Shown: positions 32,831-52,318 of the stretch, one piece after another
Layout of the letters: every line of letters starts with the position of its first letter
Position numbering within the stretch: position 1 is the first letter of the stretch
Assembly: GCA_003389385.1 (NCBI GenBank)
Contig: QQVM01000014.1
Location: forward strand, 1-64,000
Source of the DNA: Bacteroidota bacterium
Lineage (GTDB): Bacteria > Bacteroidota > Bacteroidia > AKYH767-A > 2013-40CM-41-45
Direction: 5' to 3'
DNA length: 64,000 nucleotides
Program-made: the position numbers and the translations under genes
Notes under the pieces: model-generated
Told to the model about the DNA's origin: nothing
Seen by the model: the letters and a program-made list of their open reading frames with translations, nothing else
The model's database searches: none

Positions 32831-34165
32831 TTATTGGCTTTTGGGGAATCCAATTATAAACTCAGTTCCTTTCAATCTTGCTTTTCCTCCAATCACTTCA
32901 ATGCTGATACCATGAAACTCTGCTATTGTTTTCACAATTGGAAGCCCAAGTCCAAAACTCATTGTATCGTCAGGCCTGAACCTTCTGAAGCGGTCGAATA
33001 TATGCGGTATGTTCTGCTCCTCAATTCCAACTCCTTCATCAGCAATTGATATTTTGTATGAACTATTGCTTTCAACTCCCGTCACTGAAATTTTGCTATC
33101 GGGCAGACTGTATTTTATTGCATTTGCGATTATATTGAAGATCAGTGTATGTATCAATGATTTGTTGCATGGATAAAAATCAGCATCCCCGCTGAAATTT
33201 TTTTCGAGTTTAATCTGCTTTTCTTCTAGCCTCTCTTCAACTTCTGAAATCACGTCGATTGTCAGTTCATGCAGATTTACTGATTCATTTTTGAGATATT
33301 GGTCATTCTCAATCTTAGATATGTACAAAAATGCTCTGACAACCCGAGTTAGTCTGGATAATGTTTTTTGCGATTCAGCAAGTTGGCTTAGAACTTCATT
33401 CGGAATTCCGCTTTCATTCATGAGATTTTCAATCCGGTTTCTCAGGATTGATACAGGAGTGAGCAATTCATGGGAAACGTTCGTGATGAATTCTCTTTCT
33501 GACCTGAAAGCCAGCTGAATTTTTTTCATCATTTCATTTATCTCCTGGTTGAGTTCTATGAATTCGGTTGTACTGGTTTGAATCGGCATCGGAACAAAAT
33601 TCTCAGGGTGCCTGATGTTTCTCAACTTCTGACTGGTGATTTTACGAAAAGGTCTGAGAAGTATCTGGACGAATCCAAAGTCAAGAAAAATAAAAATCAG
33701 GATGATAATTAACATCATTCTTAGCGTGAATTCCCTTATTGTATCTGTAAGATGATCAAGGCTGCTGATTCCCTCACCGATTTCCAGATTGTAAAGCTGG
33801 TTATCGTAGATAAAGGCCTGACTGAGTACACGGTGTTTCAGAATTTCATTCTCAATGTTCCGCTCGGAATTGTTGATATGGATTTTACCGAAATCATCCG
33901 GCATTCTTGAAAGAGGAGAGATAGCTACATATTCTTCTTTAAAAATATTGTAGCTGCTGAAGCTGCAATCCTGATCTAGTGCAATCTCATTCACACCGCC
34001 CCTTTCAATCATCAAAGTCATCTTGTCAAGCCGTGCGTTCAGTCGGTCATCCACGTGGTTGTAAACCACTTGTTCGATTACAACTGGCAAGGCAAGGCCA
34101 AAAGCCAAAATGATAATGGCTTTTGACAAAGCATTATACAAAGCAAATTTTAACTGAAGTTTCAA
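32831..34165 (-). CDS. Sensor histidine kinase
   Basis: A 444-residue kinase. Membrane helices at about 9-31 and 149-171 enclose a periplasmic domain of about 115 residues that I cannot assign. A short HAMP-like linker leads to the dimerisation domain with His232 in FITNVSHELLTPVS. The catalytic domain has the N box (NIIANAIKYS), G1 (DEGVGIEEQ), the F box (IFDRFRRF) and G2 (GLGLPIVK). It is 23 bases downstream of the response regulator, its evident partner. The signal is unknown. Confidence 0.94.
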   Translation of the reverse strand: MKLQLKFALYNALSKAIIILAFGLALPVVIEQVVYNHVDDRLNARLDKMTLMIERGGVNEIALDQDCSFSSYNIFKEEYVAISPLSRMPDDFGKIHINNSERNIENEILKHRVLSQAFIYDNQLYNLEIGEGISSLDHLTDTIREFTLRMMLIIILIFIFLDFGFVQILLRPFRKITSQKLRNIRHPENFVPMPIQTSTTEFIELNQEINEMMKKIQLAFRSEREFITNVSHELLTPVSILRNRIENLMNESGIPNEVLSQLAESQKTLSRLTRVVRAFLYISKIENDQYLKNESVNLHELTIDVISEVEERLEEKQIKLEKNFSGDADFYPCNKSLIHTLIFNIIANAIKYSLPDSKISVTGVESNSSYKISIADEGVGIEEQNIPHIFDRFRRFRPDDTMSFGLGLPIVKTIAEFHGISIEVIGGKARLKGTEFIIGFPKSQ

Positions 34166-34188
34166 TTCCTGATAATTTATTGACCGAC

Positions 34189-34866
34189 TCAGGACATATT
34201 CAGGCGATATCCGATCCCCCTTACCGTTTCGATGAAATCTGAATTTCCGTATTGCGAAAGTTTCTTGCGGAGATTCTTCATGTGAACATCAATGTAATTG
34301 GATTCATAATCGTCTTCCAAAACATCACCCCATATGTGTTCAGTCAATTGTACGCGGGTGATAACTCTGTTTTTATGGAGAGCCATATAGTGCAGAATAT
34401 CAAATTCTTTCTTTGTCAGGTTTATCTGGTTACTTCCATGATTGACAGTCCTGTTCTGTATGTCCATCAGAAAATCTGAAATCTGAATTGTATTGTTTTT
34501 TAATCCATGTTTGCGGCGAAGTATCGCTTGCATCCTGGCCTGAAGTTCCAGCAATGAAAAAGGTTTGGCGAGGTAATCATCCGCACCTAAATCAAGTCCG
34601 CTGATCTTATCATCAATAGTTCCTCTTGCTGTCAGCATAATGAACGCGGCATCCTTGCCGCCTTCTTTTGCTTCTTTCAATAGTTGTAGTCCGTTGCTGT
34701 CCGGAAGACCGATGTCCATGAGCACAAAATCATAAGAATTGATAAAAATTTTTTCAGATGCGCTCTTTCCGTTAAATGCAACATCACAGTGATAACCCTG
34801 TTTGGTCAGGAAAATTTCAATTTCGTGTGAAAGCTGTCTTTCGTCTTCTACTATCAGTACATTCAT
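34189..34866 (-). CDS. OmpR-family response regulator
   Basis: A 225-residue regulator. The receiver keeps the acidic pair (VEDE), the phosphoacceptor Asp51 (LMDIGLPDS), Thr79 and Lys101 (LAKPFS). The C-terminal winged helix has the ESNYIDVHMKNLRKKL recognition region and ends RGIGYRLNMS. The kinase gene follows and a class III aminotransferase gene precedes by 11 bases, so the three may share one transcript. Targets are unknown. Confidence 0.95.
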   Translation of the reverse strand: MNVLIVEDERQLSHEIEIFLTKQGYHCDVAFNGKSASEKIFINSYDFVLMDIGLPDSNGLQLLKEAKEGGKDAAFIMLTARGTIDDKISGLDLGADDYLAKPFSLLELQARMQAILRRKHGLKNNTIQISDFLMDIQNRTVNHGSNQINLTKKEFDILHYMALHKNRVITRVQLTEHIWGDVLEDDYESNYIDVHMKNLRKKLSQYGNSDFIETVRGIGYRLNMS

Positions 34867-34877
34867 TATTTCTCAGT

Positions 34878-36062
34878 TTAGTTTTCATTCAATGATTCGA
34901 GTATCACCGAACAGGCCATTTTAATTTCATCATCGCTGATAATCAGCGGGGGTGCAATTCTGAGGCAATCAGGTGCGAAAAGAAACCAGTCTGTTAGTAA
35001 TCCTCTTTCTAAACACTTACCGATGACTTTTTGATTTAAATCGGAAGAATCAAATTTCAAAGCACAAAATAAACCTTTTCCCCTAAATTCCCTTATGAGA
35101 GGATGATGAAGATAATTTTGAAATACCCTGCCTTTTCGGATTACCTCAGATTTATAATTTCCTTGTTTCAAATGCTTAACCAAAGCCAGGGAAGCAGCGC
35201 AAGAGAGGGGGTGGCCTCCAAATGTAGTGATGTGTCCCAGCACAGGATCATAACTCAGAACTGACATGATTTTCCTGGAAGAAATGAATGCTCCCAGAGG
35301 TAAGCCACCACCGAATGCTTTACCCAGTAAAAGGATATCAGGTATAACACCAGATTCTTCAAATGCGAACATGGGACCAGTTCTGTGCATACCAGTCTGG
35401 ATTTCATCCAGAATGAGCAAAGTCCCGTTTGCCTCACACTCTTCTTTGAGCTTTTTCAGGTACGTTTCTTCAGGAATGATTAATCCGGCTTCTGCCTGAA
35501 TCGGCTCAATGATTACAGCAGCAGTTTTTTCATCTATCTCGCCAAGTTCCGCCACTGAATTGAATTCGAGTATTTTTATACCGGGCAGAAGCGGGCGGTA
35601 AGAGTTTTTCAATGCCTCGTTTCCGCATACACTAAGAGAGCCCTGTGTGCTTCCGTGATAAGAATTTCGAAAGGATATTATCTTGTTCCTTCCAGTGAAC
35701 CTCTTAGCCAGCTTTATGGCTCCTTCAGTTGCTTCACTTCCGGAATTTGTAAAATAAACAGATGATAATTGCGAAGGCAATAAAGAGCACAACTCTTTTG
35801 CAAGTTCAACTTGTACGGATTGAATCACTTCACCGTATACCATGAGGTGAAGATGCCGGTCGACCTGCTTTTTAACTGCTTTTTTGATTTCAGGATGTGA
35901 GTGGCCAAGATTACTGACGGCAATACCGGAGATCAAATCCATAATCTTTCGGCCACTTTTTTCCATCAAATACATGCCTGATGCATGTTCAATTTCAAGT
36001 GCAAGCGGACTGGAACTGGTTTGGGCCAGGTGTTGATAGAATAATTCTCTGGTAGCAGGCAT
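34878..36062 (-). CDS. Class III PLP aminotransferase (acetylornithine aminotransferase-like)
   Basis: A 394-residue fold type I, class III aminotransferase. Key segments are YFTNSGSEATEGAIKLAKR (phosphate loop), SYHGSTQGSLS, ILDEIQTGMHRTG with the PLP Asp, and the Schiff-base Lys in LLGKAFGGGLPLG. The family includes acetylornithine, ornithine and 4-aminobutyrate aminotransferases, and the substrate cannot be fixed here. No arginine or GABA genes are adjacent; its transcriptional link to a two-component pair is unusual. A TAnnTTTG box (TATCTTTG, complement of 36067-36074) lies directly upstream of the ATG. Confidence 0.9.
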   Translation of the reverse strand: MPATRELFYQHLAQTSSSPLALEIEHASGMYLMEKSGRKIMDLISGIAVSNLGHSHPEIKKAVKKQVDRHLHLMVYGEVIQSVQVELAKELCSLLPSQLSSVYFTNSGSEATEGAIKLAKRFTGRNKIISFRNSYHGSTQGSLSVCGNEALKNSYRPLLPGIKILEFNSVAELGEIDEKTAAVIIEPIQAEAGLIIPEETYLKKLKEECEANGTLLILDEIQTGMHRTGPMFAFEESGVIPDILLLGKAFGGGLPLGAFISSRKIMSVLSYDPVLGHITTFGGHPLSCAASLALVKHLKQGNYKSEVIRKGRVFQNYLHHPLIREFRGKGLFCALKFDSSDLNQKVIGKCLERGLLTDWFLFAPDCLRIAPPLIISDDEIKMACSVILESLNEN

Positions 36063-45574: not shown

Positions 45575-46342
45575 TCAGAATTTCTCAAACACCCCAAGCC
45601 CGAACAAAGCAAAATCATATTTGACCGGATCCTCGGGGTCGAATTCTCTGAGCTTAGCCGTGAGCTCAAGGACAGCTTTCCAGTCGTTGCTGGTCCTTAT
45701 TAAAAGTCCCAGTTTGCGTGAAACTCTGCCAGAATGCAAATCAAGAGGGCAGAGAAGATGCTTTGAACTATTGTTTTGCCAAATTCCGAAGTCAACTCCA
45801 TGATTGTCCTTGCGAATCATCCAGCGTAAAAACATATTCATTCTTTTTGCAGCAGATCCGGCCTTGGGATCTGGAAGGTGTTTTCGTAATCTGGAAGGGT
45901 GTCTTTTGCCAAAAAAGTCATTCCTGAATAGCGTAAGGGAATTCTCCGTTTGCTCCGGGCTATTCAAATTTTGAAAGTAACTCTCAAGGCCATCCTTTTG
46001 ATATATTTGTTTGAGTGCCCCTATGAAAAAAGCGCAGTCAGAAGGAAGAAATGTCCGGTGAACAAAAGCCGAAAAGCGTCTGAGATCTTGATGGGTGTGC
46101 TGTAAAATAAAGTCATGCGGGGAATCATCCATCAAACTTATAAGATTTCTGGCATTACGAATGATGATTTTTCGCTGCCCCCAGGAAATTATGGAAGTGA
46201 GGAAAGCAGATATCTCAATATCCTCCTTCTTGCTGAAAAGATGGGGTATTGAAATCGGATCTGATTCAATGAATTCAGGCCTGTTGTACTGACGGGCTTT
46301 TTCATCCAGGAATTCCTTCAGTTCCGTGGGGTTGAGAATCAT
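45575..46342 (-). CDS. TIGR02757 (DUF2400) family protein
   Basis: A 255-residue protein matching TIGR02757: DPISIPHLFSKKEDIEISAFL at the N-terminus, ISWGQRKIIIRNA, MNMFLRWMIRKDNHGVDFGIW and PLDLHSGRVSRKLGLL. The family is widespread in Bacteroidota and resembles helix-hairpin-helix DNA glycosylases in fold, but I know of no demonstrated activity. It heads the minus-strand run to the RsmI-like gene. Confidence 0.88.
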   Translation of the reverse strand: MILNPTELKEFLDEKARQYNRPEFIESDPISIPHLFSKKEDIEISAFLTSIISWGQRKIIIRNARNLISLMDDSPHDFILQHTHQDLRRFSAFVHRTFLPSDCAFFIGALKQIYQKDGLESYFQNLNSPEQTENSLTLFRNDFFGKRHPSRLRKHLPDPKAGSAAKRMNMFLRWMIRKDNHGVDFGIWQNNSSKHLLCPLDLHSGRVSRKLGLLIRTSNDWKAVLELTAKLREFDPEDPVKYDFALFGLGVFEKF

Positions 46343-46499: not shown

Positions 46500-46685
46500 T
46501 TATGCCGGGATTGAATTACGGCGTCTGAAGTTGCCTCCATGTATCACTGAAAACACTCCGGATACCTGTTCAAGCAGGTTTTTGTGATGATCCCTCAGGA
46601 CTTCTTCTGTCTGCTTTCCTAAGTATGAAATTGTAAGCTTTGTGTTTTTATTTTCTTTGTTTGAATTTGTGAATACGATTTCCAT
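46500..46685 (-). CDS. Small protein of unknown function, 61 residues
   Basis: The ATG at 46685 gives 61 residues; an upstream start would overlap the receiver remnant. The N-terminal half reads as two beta strands (MEIVFTNSN, KLTISYLGK) followed by a helix (EEVLRDHHKNLLEQVSGVF) and a basic tail (GGNFRRRNSIPA). I recognise no family. It lies 31 bases after the end of the interrupted receiver gene and could be in the same transcript. Confidence 0.45.
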   Translation of the reverse strand: MEIVFTNSNKENKNTKLTISYLGKQTEEVLRDHHKNLLEQVSGVFSVIHGGNFRRRNSIPA

Positions 46686-46716: not shown

Positions 46717-47163
46717 TTACACGATAAATTCCCTGAGCTGGTAAGCATCCAGCGGAGTATCCAGAAAGCGAACTACGCTGGGCTGGAGCAGCATTTCATG
46801 TTTCAGATCATCATTCCTGCTGCCGCTGAGGAGAATAAGCTTGCATTTGTTTCTTATAAAATCGGACAGTTCGGAGAAGTCTGACATGAAGTTTCTGGCT
46901 GAATAAGATTCATCGCTGTCGTCGAGATTCAGGAAAATCAGTTCGGGTACTTCGCTTAAAAGTTCGGTGTCGTGTAATCTTTTCATGACAGCGGCTGCCT
47001 ACTCTTCCATCTTCACTTGTTTGGCTACAGACATTACTCTGAGCAGAATTTCATTGATTTCCCTGTTCTTGGAGTTACTGTCAATCAGAATAACTTTCTC
47101 AAAGCGCGGAGCATGGCTCTGCGGCGTGATCTCATAAAACTGTTTGTGTTTCTTGGCTTTCAT
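46717..47163 (-). pseudogene. CheY-like receiver domain gene interrupted by an in-frame TAG
   Basis: Read as one frame, 47163 to 46717 encodes a single receiver domain of 148 codons split by TAG at 47001-46999. Before it: basic leader, then KVILIDSNSKNREINEILL (first strand and helix). After it: ELIFLNLDDSDES, KLILLSGSRNDDL and FLDTPLDAYQLREF, which are strands 3-5 of the same fold. Both halves keep the same frame, so a single base change explains the break. The active site is also altered: the phosphoacceptor Asp position reads Asn (FLNLD) and the invariant Lys reads Thr (LDTPLD). It is either a decaying gene, two separately translated halves, or a sequencing error on top of a pseudo-receiver. 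Confidence 0.65.
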
Positions 47164-47429: not shown

Positions 47430-47645
47430 TTATGCTTTTGGATCTACTGGCTCCACAACTACCGTTTCATGAGGATCTGAAGCATCATCGAATAATAAGT
47501 TAAATGCATCGTCTCCTCCATTATTTTCATAGCCTTCATTTGAGCGAATCTGTTCCAGTAATTCCGCATCAAAATCAGATACAGATTTGTAGTCCTCTGC
47601 TTTCAAGCCTAGGGCCATTAAAATGTAAATTATTAATTCCAGCAT
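47430..47645 (-). CDS. Small acidic protein of unknown function, 71 residues
   Basis: Residues 1-15 are hydrophobic (MLELIIYILMALGLK) and the rest is strongly acidic (FDAELLEQIRSNEGYENNGGDD, LLFDDASDPHETVVVEP). It could be a membrane-associated peptide or a precursor, but there is no Cys, Gly-Gly leader site or other RiPP signature. A TAnnTTTG box (TATGTTTG, complement of 47661-47668) lies just upstream. It is divergent from the 508-residue helical protein gene. I recognise no family. Confidence 0.5.
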   Translation of the reverse strand: MLELIIYILMALGLKAEDYKSVSDFDAELLEQIRSNEGYENNGGDDAFNLLFDDASDPHETVVVEPVDPKA

Positions 47646-47749
47646 TGTTGTTTTTTATTTCAAACATATGCCGGGTGTCAGGCCTCGTGTACCAATATTT
47701 CATTGATTTCTTACAAAAGGAAGAACTCCATAAAAATCAATTTTGATAA

Positions 47750-49276
47750 ATGAAAGCATACGAGCAATTGCAGCAACTGATTCTTGTTTTGAATAAAGAA
47801 GAAAAAAGAAAGCTTAAAAAAAGATTACTTGAGCAATCTGAAATTTATTCAAGACAAAAAACTTTGAAGTTATTTGAACTTATTGATGACAATAAAGCAA
47901 GTTCGCGCCTCCTGACTTATCGCGCATTGTACGATAAAGATGGACAGAATCAGTCATTTTCAAAATTATGTCTGAGGCTGAAAGAAAAAATTTATGAAGT
48001 CATTCTGGCGAAATCCTCAATCCTGAGCAATCAGGCTGCGGAAAGAACATTGAAAATATTTGAACTGCGAAAAAAAATTAATCTGATTGATTTGCTTGTG
48101 TTCAAAGGTTACAGGTTTAATATTATCAATGAACTGAATTCAATAATTAAATCTTCTCATGAATTTGAAGTTTATGATGTTGAACTGAGTGCTTTGTCTA
48201 CAAAATTTAGGTTAGTTTTTTTGAAAGGTAATAAGCAATTAAATAATAAGATCATGAAATCAATATCAATGGTTCAAGAAGAATGGAGAATGTTTAATGA
48301 AGCGCAAGTAATATTTACAGAAATTAATTCAAAGATCAATAAATCCAACGAATTTGAGGATTATAAAATCGATTTAGAAAGCGCAATTACATCCTTTAAT
48401 AATTATCTCAAGAAATCGTCGTCTCCAACAATTTTGTATTTCAAGCTTTTTTTAGAAATGGATAGGGCTCAAAAAAACGAAAATTATTTTTTGGCAGATA
48501 AACTCTTGTTAGAACAATACAATACAATCAGAGGTTTCAAATCAGTTTATAATATTACACGTGAATTCAATTGCACTCTGAATTATGCCGATAACTTTAT
48601 TCAGCTTAATAATTACTCGAAGGCACTTGAATATACGGCCCGAACAAAAGTATTAATGCAAAATCACCAGTTGAATTTCAGTCTTGCTTTGGAACTTGAA
48701 TTACTGGCACTCATTTACTGGGGAAAAGTAGAGCGGGCTTTGCCATTATCGGAAAAATTACAGCAGTTATCATATAAGCTAAATAATGAATATTTGTTGA
48801 GCAGACGTTTGCTTATGATTTTAAATCTTCATTTTATAAACCGGAATTTTCAAAAAGTAATTGAGTTGCTTACTGAAAGCCGGGAGATTGACAGGGATAA
48901 AGAGGGCTTGAACATTATCAGGCGACTTATGACCATACTATGTAAAATTGAGTTGAATGATCTCGATTCACTTGAACTCAATATTCAGAATATGGATAAG
49001 TATATAAAAAGGATGATGAAGTCGAAATATATTCAGCCCCGTTACCTGATTATTTTCCGCATTCTTAGGAAACTTATTAACGATAACTTTGATTATAAAA
49101 AAGTTTATTCTTCCCGCAAAAAACAATTTGATCTTTTGTATTCAGGACAAAAGGAATACAAGTGGAAAATCAAGAGTCCGGAGCTGGTAATTTTTGAAGA
49201 ATGGTTTTTATCCAAAGTGGAAAAATCTCATTATAATCATGCAGAAGTTATGAACAAAAGGGCAGCACATATTTAA
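47750..49276 (+). CDS. Helical-repeat protein of unknown function, paralogue A
   Basis: 508 residues, Lys/Glu/Leu-rich, almost certainly all alpha-helical with TPR-like repeats. There is no signal peptide or membrane segment. The N-terminus (LILVLNKEEKRKLKKRLL) fits a pattern I recall from a large lineage-specific Bacteroidota family with no assigned function. It is paralogous to the protein at 50744: both have a segment of the form KKxxLxxxLxxRGxxxxxxxxLxxII after residue 105, and both end in a near-identical block (KSPELVIFEEWFLSK here, LSPEMIVFHEWLLAK there). Base composition is more A/T-rich than the neighbouring housekeeping genes. Confidence 0.75.
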   Translation: MKAYEQLQQLILVLNKEEKRKLKKRLLEQSEIYSRQKTLKLFELIDDNKASSRLLTYRALYDKDGQNQSFSKLCLRLKEKIYEVILAKSSILSNQAAERTLKIFELRKKINLIDLLVFKGYRFNIINELNSIIKSSHEFEVYDVELSALSTKFRLVFLKGNKQLNNKIMKSISMVQEEWRMFNEAQVIFTEINSKINKSNEFEDYKIDLESAITSFNNYLKKSSSPTILYFKLFLEMDRAQKNENYFLADKLLLEQYNTIRGFKSVYNITREFNCTLNYADNFIQLNNYSKALEYTARTKVLMQNHQLNFSLALELELLALIYWGKVERALPLSEKLQQLSYKLNNEYLLSRRLLMILNLHFINRNFQKVIELLTESREIDRDKEGLNIIRRLMTILCKIELNDLDSLELNIQNMDKYIKRMMKSKYIQPRYLIIFRILRKLINDNFDYKKVYSSRKKQFDLLYSGQKEYKWKIKSPELVIFEEWFLSKVEKSHYNHAEVMNKRAAHI

Positions 49277-49346
49277 AATATCCATCATCTATTGGATTGA
49301 ATGATAGTGGTAACGGAATTTCATTTGGAACTCCAAATCACTTCTT

Positions 49347-50270
49347 ATGCCCACTGTTTCATTTTACCTCATGTACCTTTTAGGATTCCAAAATTTATCC
49401 GACTCAACTGTTCATAAAAATTATAAGACGAGATTAATTAAACTTGAGGAAAAGCAAATTCAAGTTCAAAATCACCAAATAGATTTTGGTAGTTCATTCT
49501 TCTACGATCGGAATTCTGCAATAAAGAAAAGTTTATATATTAAGTCTTTCTTCAATTATTCACGTGAAGCCAAAATTGAATATTCTGTAAAGACCAAGAT
49601 TCAGTATAATCTTGATTACCGTTTCGCGGCCACTTATTTTATCGACAGTCTTTGGAATAAGAACAGAGATGAATTCAACATTTCTTTAATGTTGCTAAAT
49701 AAAAAATCTGCAAAGATTCATTCAAGTTATTCTCTTCAGATTAACTCAGGAATTTTTCCGGAATTCGGAAACTCAGTTTCATCTTCTGATTATTCATCTT
49801 TTTTTAATCCCGGGTCTATCCTTTTTACCCGCGGCTTTATGTTTAAATTTTGGAAGCGAAGTTGGCTTAATGTATCACTTGCCTCAATCAGGATTTGGAC
49901 TCTGCCGGTATTGCATGAATCAATTCCGGACAAAATAAATAAGCAAGCCGAACCTGAAAGAAAATGGAATTTTGATTATGGGTTTTCACTCAAATGCGGG
50001 GTCAGAGAAAAACTTACTAATAAGCTGGAATGGGATGCCCGTCTCACGTTATTTATCAACTCAGCCACTGCATATTCCCAGTCACTTTTAGTTGATCAGA
50101 GATTGACTTATTCTCCCTTTAAACCCGTAAGAATTACTTCCCATTCCAGTTTTAGGTTGAATCCTGCGAGGAATCGGCAGGCACAATTTTTCCAGGAGAT
50201 TCAGATTGGGATTGGATTTGTACTGATACCAGACAGGACTCAATCTTCCTTACCTGGAGCATCATATTGA
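49347..50270 (+). CDS. Probable outer-membrane beta-barrel protein of unknown function
   Basis: 307 residues. The N-terminus has a short hydrophobic stretch (VSFYLMYLLGF) that could serve as a signal peptide. The body is rich in alternating aromatic/polar segments typical of barrel strands (KIEYSVKTKIQYNLDYRFAA; WLNVSLASIRIWTL; LEWDARLTLFINSA), and a last strand FFQEIQIGIGFVLIP near the end. No named domain recognised. It follows paralogue A by 70 bases on the same strand; its last 31 bases overlap the convergent HTH gene. Confidence 0.6.
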   Translation: MPTVSFYLMYLLGFQNLSDSTVHKNYKTRLIKLEEKQIQVQNHQIDFGSSFFYDRNSAIKKSLYIKSFFNYSREAKIEYSVKTKIQYNLDYRFAATYFIDSLWNKNRDEFNISLMLLNKKSAKIHSSYSLQINSGIFPEFGNSVSSSDYSSFFNPGSILFTRGFMFKFWKRSWLNVSLASIRIWTLPVLHESIPDKINKQAEPERKWNFDYGFSLKCGVREKLTNKLEWDARLTLFINSATAYSQSLLVDQRLTYSPFKPVRITSHSSFRLNPARNRQAQFFQEIQIGIGFVLIPDRTQSSLPGASY

Positions 50271-50548
50271 TCCCTTGCAGGCTCTGCTGCCATTCTGGGC
50301 TCAGTTTTATTCTTTTCCATCATTTCGAATACTTCCAAGGGACTCATGTTGTGAATTGAACATAACCTGAAAAAATTTTTCATGGTAATGTTTTGTCCGT
50401 TCTCCCATCTCCAATAAGCAGTTCTGTTGAGATTGAACTCATAGCTGAAAATTTCAGCTGATTTAAATCCTTGCTTAAGCCTTAGCTTACGAATGACAAT
50501 GCCAAGGTCAATTAATTTTTCATCCTTTTGTTGTTTTTTATTTTCCAT
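50240..50548 (-). CDS. HTH (XRE-like) transcriptional regulator
   Basis: The ATG at 50548 gives 102 residues; the longer ORF adds 21 residues of poor quality. The HTH spans about 13-70: LGIVIRKLRLKQGFKSAEIFSYEFNLNRTAYWRWENGQNITMKN, the Cro/CI pattern with the recognition helix around NRTAYWRWE. The tail is polar and probably unstructured. The gene is divergent from paralogue B, so it may regulate that promoter and itself; this is inferred from position. It overlaps the end of the barrel gene tail to tail. Confidence 0.72.
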   Translation of the reverse strand: MENKKQQKDEKLIDLGIVIRKLRLKQGFKSAEIFSYEFNLNRTAYWRWENGQNITMKNFFRLCSIHNMSPLEVFEMMEKNKTEPRMAAEPARDQYDAPGKED

Positions 50549-50743
50549 TGTGATTTGTTTTGATGAGGATGAAAGTAGATGTGACACGAAAGTGAACTTA
50601 GGACAGAACAAAAGATTGAAAAGCTTATGTATGGATCATTCAAAATATTGTATATTGCTAAATATTAATAACTTATAATAATCATCAGAGGACAAAATCA
50701 ATGTTTTTTTTAACTCTGTTTTTACATAAAACAACATATCATT

Positions 50744-52318
50744 ATGAAGGAATACTTGAATTTGAAAGAAATTCTAATGAAACTTACGGACAACGAGAAG
50801 GTAGATTTGTTTAATTCAATTGAATATATTAGAAGAAATGATTTTTCTATTTTAATTAAGGCTATCATAGATAACCCTGAAATTCATTTGTCTGATATAA
50901 GGAATCTGTATTTTAAAAATGAGAAAATTAATGCTCTTCGTACTAAGGTTAAAAAGATTTTACACTTAATAGATGATTTACTTTTAAAACACAAATTTTT
51001 TGTAGAATTACCTATTCAATATGACAGAACGTATCATTTGATTGAACTTAAAAAAAAATTATTGTTAGCTGAAATATTATTTATTAGAGGCTTAAGCTTA
51101 CTCGCAGTTGACTATATAGATAAAATAATTTCTAAGGCAAATAAATTTGAATTCTTTGATATAGTTGCAGCATGTAAAAAGAGCAAACTTTATTTTTTAA
51201 TTAGAAGAATTGAAGGCCAGTTAATCGAAAAACTGTCTGATGAAATAAAAGAATATCAGCTCAAGAATACTTTGTTTGAAAAGGCAAGATCTTATTATTA
51301 TAAGTCTGTTTTAGGAAGTCCTGCTTATAGAGCAAAATTTAATACTGAAGAAAATTTAAAAAGAATACTAAACGAGTTGGAGGAGGATTTTAAATTTACA
51401 AAATCTTTTCGGATTTTTAATTATGCCTTGATGATTGATGTTGCGAATACTAATTGTCATACCAATCCAATTGTTTATGAAAAGAAATATAAGAAAATAT
51501 TACAACTTCAAAAGAATTATGCATGTTTAAATGAGCCAATACAAATAAGTACTACATTACTAAACCTTGCCCGCGCAAATATTTACAATTACAATTTTGC
51601 TAAAGCAATAGAATTAATTAGAAATGCAAAACCCCAACTAATTGCAAGTCCATTAAACAAGGCCATCGTAATTGAACAACAATTTTTAACTTTGTATTTT
51701 TTCGGCCAAAAATATATGCCTTATTTCCAAAAATTAGATTCATTTGTTTGGGAAGGTATTTTAAAAAATTTAAATGCGGATAAAATAAGATACTATCAGG
51801 CTTGCATTCATTTTATTGATGGAAAATTCACTGATAGTCTTTTTGTTTTATCGGATCTCCCTCATTTAAATAAGCACAAAGATGATTGGAATGTTGCTAT
51901 ACGCATTCTGCGGGTCTTGTGTCTGATTGAACTTGACAAGACAGACGAAACTGATCTTGAAATTGAAAGTTTACGAAAGCATGTGGAACGTGTAAAAAGG
52001 GAGCTTAGAGTGGATCCCAGAGCCGAAAGAATTGTAAAATGCCTTGTCAGCTTATCTCAACATAGCTATAACTATAAAAAGTTATTAAAATCACATGCAA
52101 AGCATGTAGATGCATTAACATCTGCTGAAATTGATATGCGCTGGAAAATTCTATCACCTGAAATGATTGTTTTTCATGAATGGTTATTGGCAAAGTTGGA
52201 TTCAAAGCCATACGATCATGTTCAGGTAATGGTCAAACAAAAGAAAAGGTTTGACGAAGAATTCAGCAAAGCATTCTTACCTTTGGAGCAGGATGCCGAT
52301 ACAATTGAAAGTCTCTGA
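50744..52318 (+). CDS. Helical-repeat protein of unknown function, paralogue B
   Basis: 524 residues, all-helical, very A/T-rich coding sequence. It is homologous to the protein at 47750, with the same length, the same N-terminal layout (ILMKLTDNEKVDLF), the same middle motif (ELKKKLLLAEILFIRGLSLL) and the same C-terminal block at residues 466-493. Extra at the C-terminus is an acidic tail (QDADTIESL). Its last 26 bases overlap the start of mnmH in another frame, so the two may be co-expressed. The 195-bp upstream gap, shared with the HTH gene, is A/T-rich and likely holds the control sites. Confidence 0.75.
   Translation: MKEYLNLKEILMKLTDNEKVDLFNSIEYIRRNDFSILIKAIIDNPEIHLSDIRNLYFKNEKINALRTKVKKILHLIDDLLLKHKFFVELPIQYDRTYHLIELKKKLLLAEILFIRGLSLLAVDYIDKIISKANKFEFFDIVAACKKSKLYFLIRRIEGQLIEKLSDEIKEYQLKNTLFEKARSYYYKSVLGSPAYRAKFNTEENLKRILNELEEDFKFTKSFRIFNYALMIDVANTNCHTNPIVYEKKYKKILQLQKNYACLNEPIQISTTLLNLARANIYNYNFAKAIELIRNAKPQLIASPLNKAIVIEQQFLTLYFFGQKYMPYFQKLDSFVWEGILKNLNADKIRYYQACIHFIDGKFTDSLFVLSDLPHLNKHKDDWNVAIRILRVLCLIELDKTDETDLEIESLRKHVERVKRELRVDPRAERIVKCLVSLSQHSYNYKKLLKSHAKHVDALTSAEIDMRWKILSPEMIVFHEWLLAKLDSKPYDHVQVMVKQKKRFDEEFSKAFLPLEQDADTIESL

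Follow-up and report, generated by a model that had tools for sequence, protein, structure and literature searches.

The window, by which we mean the whole stretch of 64,000 nucleotides that was analyzed, harbors two forward-strand genes that encode related proteins of about 510 residues. Paralogue A (positions 47750 to 49276, 508 aa) and paralogue B (50744 to 52318, 524 aa) were each identified as an open reading frame (ORF) and by a paralogy search. Their alignment spans the full length with 24% identity (E value of 1.2e-32), and they are true paralogues, as had been proposed in a previous reading of this DNA (the sequence-only reading). No third family member turned up in the 3.36-Mb genome. 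The family is an unnamed TPR family, here designated TPR510. The C-terminal block that A and B had been said to share falls inside the best-conserved part of the family, with K379, R426, E473, and W480 (paralogue B numbering) invariant among 29 aligned sequences. In a phylogenetic tree, A of the window groups with its orthologues from genomes G001 and G009 with support of 98/98. A division into two clean clades was not retained, as the A clade (G000, G001, and G009) is supported by 98/98 and the B clade by only 80/92, with long branches.

The genes of A and B display a GC content of 30 to 31%, against approximately 40% in their larger neighbors. This A/T richness had been noted and attributed to lateral acquisition or fast evolution. 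TPR510 genes are in general richer in AT than their neighbors (26 of 28 loci and 64 of 74 loci), and their chromosomal place in the order is fixed; TPR510 lies beside a TIGR02757-family gene in 14 of the 19 genomes with a strong match. In the window this conserved neighbor, a marker of the locus in this order, is found at 45575 to 46342 on the reverse strand. Because different families of the order have TPR510 at this same place and AT richness is general in TPR510, recent lateral acquisition of A and B is unlikely, and this explanation of the composition was rejected. TPR510 proteins are fast-evolving helical-repeat proteins. Of 42 genomes of the order, 35 carry them, as do 85 of 396 genomes sampled from the class. 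For the named genome collection, a profile combining the 29 sequences proved too divergent; one built from five A-type sequences led to 11 loci.

Accessory genes between the paralogues

The sequence-only reading had placed a probable outer-membrane protein and an HTH regulator between A and B. The former gene (49347 to 50270, forward strand, 307 aa) gave one weak, sub-threshold match, to DUF3078 (E value of 0.14), which does not confirm an outer-membrane barrel; we refer to it as a putative barrel protein. A homologue occupies the same place in G001, of the same genus (25% identity, E value of 1e-32), and the ORF at this place in G009 has no similarity to it. The HTH ORF (50240 to 50611, reverse strand), divergent from B, has related genes elsewhere in the same genome family, and its HTH_3 match (E value of 0.012) lies below the cut-off.

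That the paralogues, the barrel, and the HTH protein form one surface-sensing or conflict module, as that reading had guessed, now appears extremely improbable. All four genes do occur together in G000 and G001, but among the compared loci relatives of the barrel did not extend beyond the window's genus (G000 and G001), nor those of the HTH protein beyond its family, and TPR510 is widespread without both. This locus comparison rejects the two genes as the core of a system, and they can be regarded as genus-level and family-level accessories, respectively. The neighbor that does recur beside TPR510 is a small divergent gene. A conflict function also found no support, as no PADLOC model matched A, B, or the putative barrel at E values up to 1, one TPR510 relative had no match in plasmid and phage collections, and the chromosomal place is fixed. 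The HTH protein matched generic control-protein models in PADLOC. The sensing role that had been guessed at remains plausible, and our results support it as such.

The small divergent partner gene

Back to back with A, on the reverse strand, lies a 71-codon gene (47430 to 47645; MLELIIYILMALGLK...ETVVVEPVDPKA), which we propose encodes a propeptide. A profile built on the small genes from other loci detected it (E value of 3e-18), and its translation was checked. G001 has a relative at the corresponding place, as does G009, with a weak match. The gene had been overlooked in the sequence-only reading. No small divergent gene belonging to paralogue B was found.

Genes of this kind, which carry a hydrophobic head or a signal peptide, recur upstream of TPR510. 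Among genes with free upstream space, the discovery set had a partner at 19 of 32 TPR510 genes and 2 of 61 other genes. With lengths of 35 to 140 aa allowed, the first test set gave 24 of 37 against 4 of 52 and the second 19 of 30 against 4 of 47; pooled, the test sets correspond to 43 of 67 TPR510 genes against 8 of 99 others (Fisher P value of 1e-14). Under this fixed definition, roughly one in three TPR510 genes with free space has no partner. The dN/dS ratio was 0.05 to 0.18 in six of seven small-gene pairs and saturated in the seventh, showing, as judged from substitution patterns, that the sampled small genes are coding and under purifying selection. Tandem copies (2 to 5) are present at 12 loci. 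In 43 of 51 small proteins, the hydrophobic head is followed by a Gly within residues 12 to 16. Because head-type N termini are without the usual basic residues, their export is doubtful. The other type, seen in 17 of 43 partners, has a classical signal peptide followed by a tail of approximately 70 residues, often with Cys, and these proteins resemble small secreted proteins more closely than propeptides.

In three lineages, a single precursor contains 2 to 5 copies of a short peptide. Precursors of G518, G643, G456, and G680 each contain DIIVDEI(A/G)H in triplicate, and in the latter two P is the first residue of the middle copy; the 126-residue precursor of G454 carries four copies of PSTMFDQTDG and one of PSTVFDQTDG; and that of G014 has GTEQSGWG twice. 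No internal repeat is present in the small protein of the window. In G518 and G643, 15 copies of DIIVDEIAH have 12 DNA spellings and one amino acid spelling, so that in this best case the repeats are kept at the residue level as synonymous codons drift. The bare number of repeats (10 of 124 partner candidates) was dropped as an argument, since 16 of 808 control ORFs also have them. The control repeats resemble plain DNA repeats, some being antisense of the G454 precursor, and the repeat argument thus rests on residue-level conservation.

A leader followed by repeated cores is also the layout of a RiPP precursor, for which TPR510 would be a regulator or recognition protein. We consider this improbable, as no recurring maturase-like gene was seen among the neighbor clusters, of which the family-model scan covered a part. 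Still less probable is a toxin-antitoxin or defense pair, in which the TPR protein would restrain a small hydrophobic toxin. The small hydrophobic head, the tandem copies, and the fast evolution of TPR510 are consistent with such a pair, but the results with PADLOC and with the plasmid and phage collections described above, together with the fixed chromosomal place, argue against it, and a pore-type toxin has no obvious use for conserved, repeated C-terminal peptides.

The 104 bp between the small gene and A (47646 to 47749) contain TATGTTTG, 15 bases before the ATG of the small gene. It matches TAnnTTTG, which we take to be the Bacteroidota -7 box. This motif precedes 9 of 63 small genes and 48 of 749 control ORFs, with a frequency of 3.6% in shuffles, and was judged too weak as support. 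In 6 of the 8 genomes from two families, a 19-base site has its sole occurrence between the pair. An intergenic motif shared across the order was rejected (best 9-mer in 6 of 10, with shuffles reaching 7). The GATRAACGACYRAACNRAA region would be candidate DNA for TPR510 binding. The divergent layout and the single conserved site in two families would also be expected if TPR510 acted as a local regulator, with the small gene as its target or product (a small secreted or membrane protein under ordinary autoregulation) rather than its ligand, and the partners with classical signal peptides resemble secreted end products. We regard this reading as unlikely, though the least so of the alternatives; residue-conserved repeats within precursors, as well as precursor genes in tandem, are more typical of peptide signals, and the fold neighbors of TPR510 are peptide receptors.

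The TPR510 fold and the receiver genes

A Pfam scan of the 29 members gave only generic TPR models, in some members (TPR_19 in 6 of 29), and in the family-model scan no TPR model matched A or B. An AlphaFold2 model of paralogue B (m7bb84d4ca859; mean pLDDT of 90.0, pTM of 0.82) is an all-helical superhelix. Structure prediction thus upholds the TPR-like character that had been ascribed to both paralogues, confidently for the one modeled, and the proteins have no curated family of their own. In VIA-align, the first 11 rows were all Rap or NprR (Z of 18.6 to 19.5 over 280 to 306 residues at 3.3 to 5.0 Å), RapH-Spo0F was in row 19, and the first other family was LGN (Z of 17.7 and less), trailing Rap by less than 2 Z; MalT gave 14.5. 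Among the aligned chains, the modeled TPR fold is thus shown to be closest to Rap/NprR. TPR arrays are a common fold, and the top 50 Foldseek matches, led by LGN and APC/C TPRs, included neither Rap nor NprR. Neither was present among the 35 matches of the 29-member profile to PDB chains (E values up to 1). As to membership in a characterized family, TPR510 has a fold resemblance but no sequence match to RRNPP proteins, some of its members match generic TPR models only, and the family itself is unnamed. The N-terminal domain (residues 1 to 101), modeled alone (pLDDT of 79.9), had no Foldseek match at E values of 0.001 or less; comparison with SigD region 4 (Z of 5.2 over 63 residues) and Ebola virus VP30 (Z of 8.3) gave nothing decisive for a fold assignment.

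Rap acts on the single-domain receiver Spo0F. In the window, a single-domain response-regulator receiver gene (46717 to 47163, reverse strand) is broken by an in-frame TAG about one-third of the way in. The gene is open in G009 (Response_reg E value of 3e-14), G015, and G019, and in G001 it is open but the phospho-acceptor Asp is absent. Receiver-domain genes lie within 3 kb upstream of TPR510 at 15 of 111 loci and downstream at 1 of 111.

A putative RRNPP-like pair in Bacteroidota

MalT- and LGN-type superhelices share the repeat fold, at the lower Z values given above, and are not known to have a small divergent precursor gene. A passage of PMC10075063 sets out five RRNPP criteria, including a propeptide of 10 to 100 aa, export by Sec (SignalP) or PptAB, a receptor of 250 to 500 aa, TPRs, and adjacency. 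The 71-residue product falls in the propeptide range, the genes are 104 bp apart, the superhelix, the fold matches, and TPR_19 provide the TPRs, and the proposed receptors, at 508 and 524 aa, are just above the length filter. Like Rap-Phr of Bacillota, TPR510 combines a TPR receptor module of similar shape with an adjoining small gene and, at some loci, a receiver, and repeated precursor genes and internally repeated peptides are described for the RRNPP family in part of PMC9765709. Unlike Rap, TPR510 has no detectable sequence similarity to it, bears an extra N-terminal domain of approximately 100 residues, is accompanied by head-type precursors without the basic residues of a Sec signal, and resides in Gram-negative hosts; its precursor gene is divergent and upstream, whereas PMC9765709, in the portion concerned, places that of Bacillales systems directly downstream. 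NprR-NprX and PlcR-PapR likewise have an extra N-terminal domain plus TPRs, although that of TPR510 has no significant HTH match. The same source, in part, describes a Gly after the hydrophobic helix of NprX/PapR-type propeptides and repeated mature peptides in NprR-linked precursors.

A single family with a Rap/NprR-like fold, a recurrent coding partner, residue-level repeats, and upstream receivers are what the computations gave. With these, we consider it somewhat probable that TPR510 proteins serve as receptors for intracellular peptides whose precursor is encoded by the small divergent gene, a pair working in the manner of Rap-Phr or NprR-NprX. Counting against this reading are the repeat-free small protein and the broken receiver gene of the window, the absence of Rap and NprR from the Foldseek list and of sequence similarity to RRNPP proteins, the TPR510 genes without a partner, the partners that resemble secreted proteins, the doubtful export of the head type, the repeats in control ORFs, and the sparse promoter and intergenic motifs. 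For this pair we infer export, cleavage, re-import, binding, signaling, and DNA binding as follows. A propeptide, of approximately 45 to 80 residues in the head type, would be taken to or across the inner membrane by its N-terminal hydrophobic segment. Its C-terminal stretch, sometimes multicopy, would be cut out as a short mature peptide and re-imported or retained; candidate peptide importers are present in the window's genome. The peptide would bind the groove of the superhelix (about residues 130 to 510) and alter the activity of TPR510, which may act through its N-terminal helical domain (residues 1 to 100) upon either DNA or a partner; in some lineages this partner would be the single-domain receiver whose gene belongs to the divergent cluster.

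Passages of the surveys PMC10075063, PMC9765709, and PMC13220807 regard intracellular TPR peptide receptors as belonging to Firmicutes or Gram-positive bacteria, one large survey among them having analyzed only Firmicutes genomes. No earlier description of a TPR510 pair was found in the literature searched. We put forward tentatively that TPR510 and its partners form a Bacteroidota-wide family of peptide communication systems, which would be the first of RRNPP-like type in Gram-negative bacteria. In such systems, the TPR receptor and the divergent propeptide gene, often multicopy, would have coevolved in many lineages, flanking a single conserved site and at some loci accompanied by a receiver, each lineage with a C-terminal signal of its own (for instance DIIVDEIAH, PSTMFDQTDG, GTEQSGWG). 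If true, the counterpart in 85 of the 396 sampled genomes would be a candidate peptide language for a large Gram-negative group, its predicted signal sequences could be synthesized and tested at once, and TPR-peptide sensing would be of very old ancestry or a case of convergence.

The TPR510 family and its locus

Both open reading frames proposed in the sequence-only reading, A (47750-49276, + strand, 508 aa) and B (50744-52318, + strand, 524 aa), are present as described, and its core observation of two paralogues holds: with A as the query, a search of the whole genome matched only A itself and B, the latter over the full length at 24% identity (E 1.2e-32). Scans with family models assigned neither protein to a Pfam, NCBIfam, or PADLOC family of its own. 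The product of the ORF between them (49347-50270, + strand) is at most a putative barrel. B as the query matched 27 of 61 relatives. A profile built from 29 members of this family of helical-repeat proteins, here called TPR510, detected it in 35/42 genomes of the order, 85/396 genomes of the class (E ≤ 1e-20), and 15/392 genomes of a phylum sample (E ≤ 1e-10). Named records with relatives are from Bacteroidetes, Bacteroidia, and Flavobacteriales bacteria (SHNE01000053.1 among them) and are nearly all MAGs. Members are strongly diverged (mean pairwise identity, 25%) and retain a C-terminal signature.

The A/T-richness of A and B was confirmed (30 to 31% GC versus about 40%); of the two interpretations offered for it, lateral acquisition or fast evolution, the first did not survive comparison. 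TPR510 genes were lower in GC than their neighbors at 26/28 and 64/74 loci, with the starkest contrast in the compared genome G009 (35 to 37% versus about 60%). Low GC characterizes the family as a whole. Strong hits (E below 1e-90) occurred in 19 genomes of the order, 14 of which have a divergent TIGR02757-family gene within 4 kb of TPR510; in the other five, TPR510 is located at the end of a contig and/or an intact TIGR02757 gene was not found. Downstream of TPR510 in six genomes (the window's own, G001, G009, G014, G017, and G006) is a gene that we take to be selU. Because these neighbors recur, the locus is inherited in place.

Other features were seen at these loci. In G009, an AT-rich gene (37% GC) of 327 aa lies between selU- and selD-like genes of about 60% GC (locus L034, 4646-5629). 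In one family, TPR510 is immediately followed by the gene for a C25 (gingipain-type) peptidase that carries a type IX sorting tail (locus L042, 10026-13427). The minimum of cumulative GC skew in the window is at about 34000-36000.

A small divergent gene beside TPR510

At several loci, small divergent ORFs beginning MLEIIIAILLSLGI or MIELIIALLMNLGI lie between the TIGR02757 gene and TPR510. With an iterated profile, ORFs of this kind were detected at many loci, among them those of the window (47430-47645, - strand; MLELIIYILMALGLKAEDYKSVSDFDAELLEQIRSNEGYENNGGDDAFNLLFDDASDPHETVVVEPVDPKA; E 3e-18), G001, and, weakly, G009 (E 0.007). In this discovery set, such an ORF accompanied 19/32 TPR510 genes that had 400 bp of unoccupied DNA upstream, versus 2/61 other genes. 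A partner was then defined, before the test sets, as an ATG-initiated ORF either of the head type (N-terminal hydrophobic head, ≤110 aa) or, at ≤140 aa, containing both a hydrophobic stretch and a basic residue. Partners were found at 24/37 TPR510 genes versus 4/52 others in one test set and at 19/30 versus 4/47 in the second (combined Fisher p 1.1e-14); the 80 regions cover many, not all, TPR510 places from the class-wide search, with one place in G648 common to both sets. The small gene is firmly linked to TPR510.

Additional partners recognized by eye at loci failing the definition, some of them convergent and downstream, were left out of the counts. Convergent downstream ORFs with hydrophobic heads occur in one family (L052, 7886-8074; L182, 4975-5211; L204, 1780-2034; L222, 4140-4358) and have a common C-terminal motif such as IIIFEDTHF. 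A 61-codon ORF (46500-46685, - strand) lies in the window between a broken receiver gene and the TIGR02757 gene, and G001 has one of similar length in the same place (L053, 7684-7872).

Evidence for the proposed peptide precursors

The small ORFs are genes: their dN/dS values were 0.05 to 0.18 in six of seven pairs (the seventh was saturated). Tandem copies (two to five) occur at 12 loci. Some of the proposed precursors are internally repetitive. Precursors have three copies of DIIVDEIAH in G518 and G643 and three copies of DIIVDEIGH or PIIVDEIGH in G456 and G680; relatives in G631 and G616 have a single terminal IIVDELQH. The G454 precursor has four copies of PSTMFDQTDG and one of PSTVFDQTDG, and that of G014 has two of GTEQSGWG. 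The 15 copies of DIIVDEIAH, from five genes in two genomes, have 12 DNA spellings and one amino acid spelling: selection acts on the peptide. The window's protein has no internal repeat, and a bare repeat count separated candidates from controls weakly (10/124 versus 16/808). Gly is found within residues 12 to 16, directly past the hydrophobic head, in 43/51 head-type proteins. NprR- and PlcR-linked propeptides are reported to have Gly past a hydrophobic helix, and multiple copies of pheromone genes as well as peptides repeated internally are also reported (PMC9765709). Among head-type genes, a precursor role is well supported.

Of the 43 test-set partners, 26 are head type and 17 are signal-peptide type. 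Partners of a second kind, of about 100 aa with a classical-looking signal peptide (L180, 4283-4594; L183, 4844-5143; L210, 4232-4531; L217, 2001-2294), share a tail of the type YL..GY.V...TIVYV..G.IVGHED, and the two that were scanned had no family match. For signal-peptide-type partners, the precursor role is less well supported, and the alternative that the small gene is a target or product of TPR510 fits better. Both roles may exist among the partners.

Fold of the proposed receptor, possible regulation, and relation to RRNPP systems

The predicted structure of B (mean pLDDT 90.0) is confident; it begins with a helical domain of about 90 residues at the N terminus and continues as a TPR superhelix. 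For this model, the top Foldseek rows scored modestly and were LGN and APC/C TPRs, with Rap absent from them. Realignment of the Foldseek candidates with VIA-align placed Rap or NprR in rows 1 to 11 (Z 18.6 to 19.5), the best structural alignments to the model, with LGN next (17.7). Modeled alone, the N-terminal domain (pLDDT 79.9) gave no decisive structural match. Sequence profiles of TPR510 matched generic TPRs only.

Receiver-domain genes lie on the opposite strand within 3 kb upstream of TPR510 at 15/111 loci versus 1/111 downstream (p 0.0003; one place was entered twice). The receiver gene is interrupted by an in-frame TAG in the window (46717-47163, - strand), is open in G001 with its phospho-acceptor Asp lost, and is apparently complete in G009, G015, and G019. 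The 19-base sequence GATRAACGACYRAACNRAA, a candidate operator, is present as a single copy in six of eight genomes of two families, in every case located between TPR510 and its small gene (L176, 4768; L047, 8256; L174, 3074; L168, 4206; and others); a reversed control pattern had zero matches. For the window's order, no shared motif was demonstrated. Two matches to oligopeptide-binding and three ORFs matching POT-type transporter families are present in the window's genome, so peptide import is possible in principle.

The TPR510 pair is not classed as an RRNPP member, because no sequence similarity was found and its proposed receptors slightly exceed the published length filter (PMC10075063). 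A search of the open-access literature found no report of such a system in Bacteroidota. The modeled fold and the gene layout suggest that the peptide would bind TPR510; it might also be exported and act in density sensing. We lean, with moderate confidence, toward the small gene and TPR510 forming a peptide-receptor pair that works like RRNPP systems.
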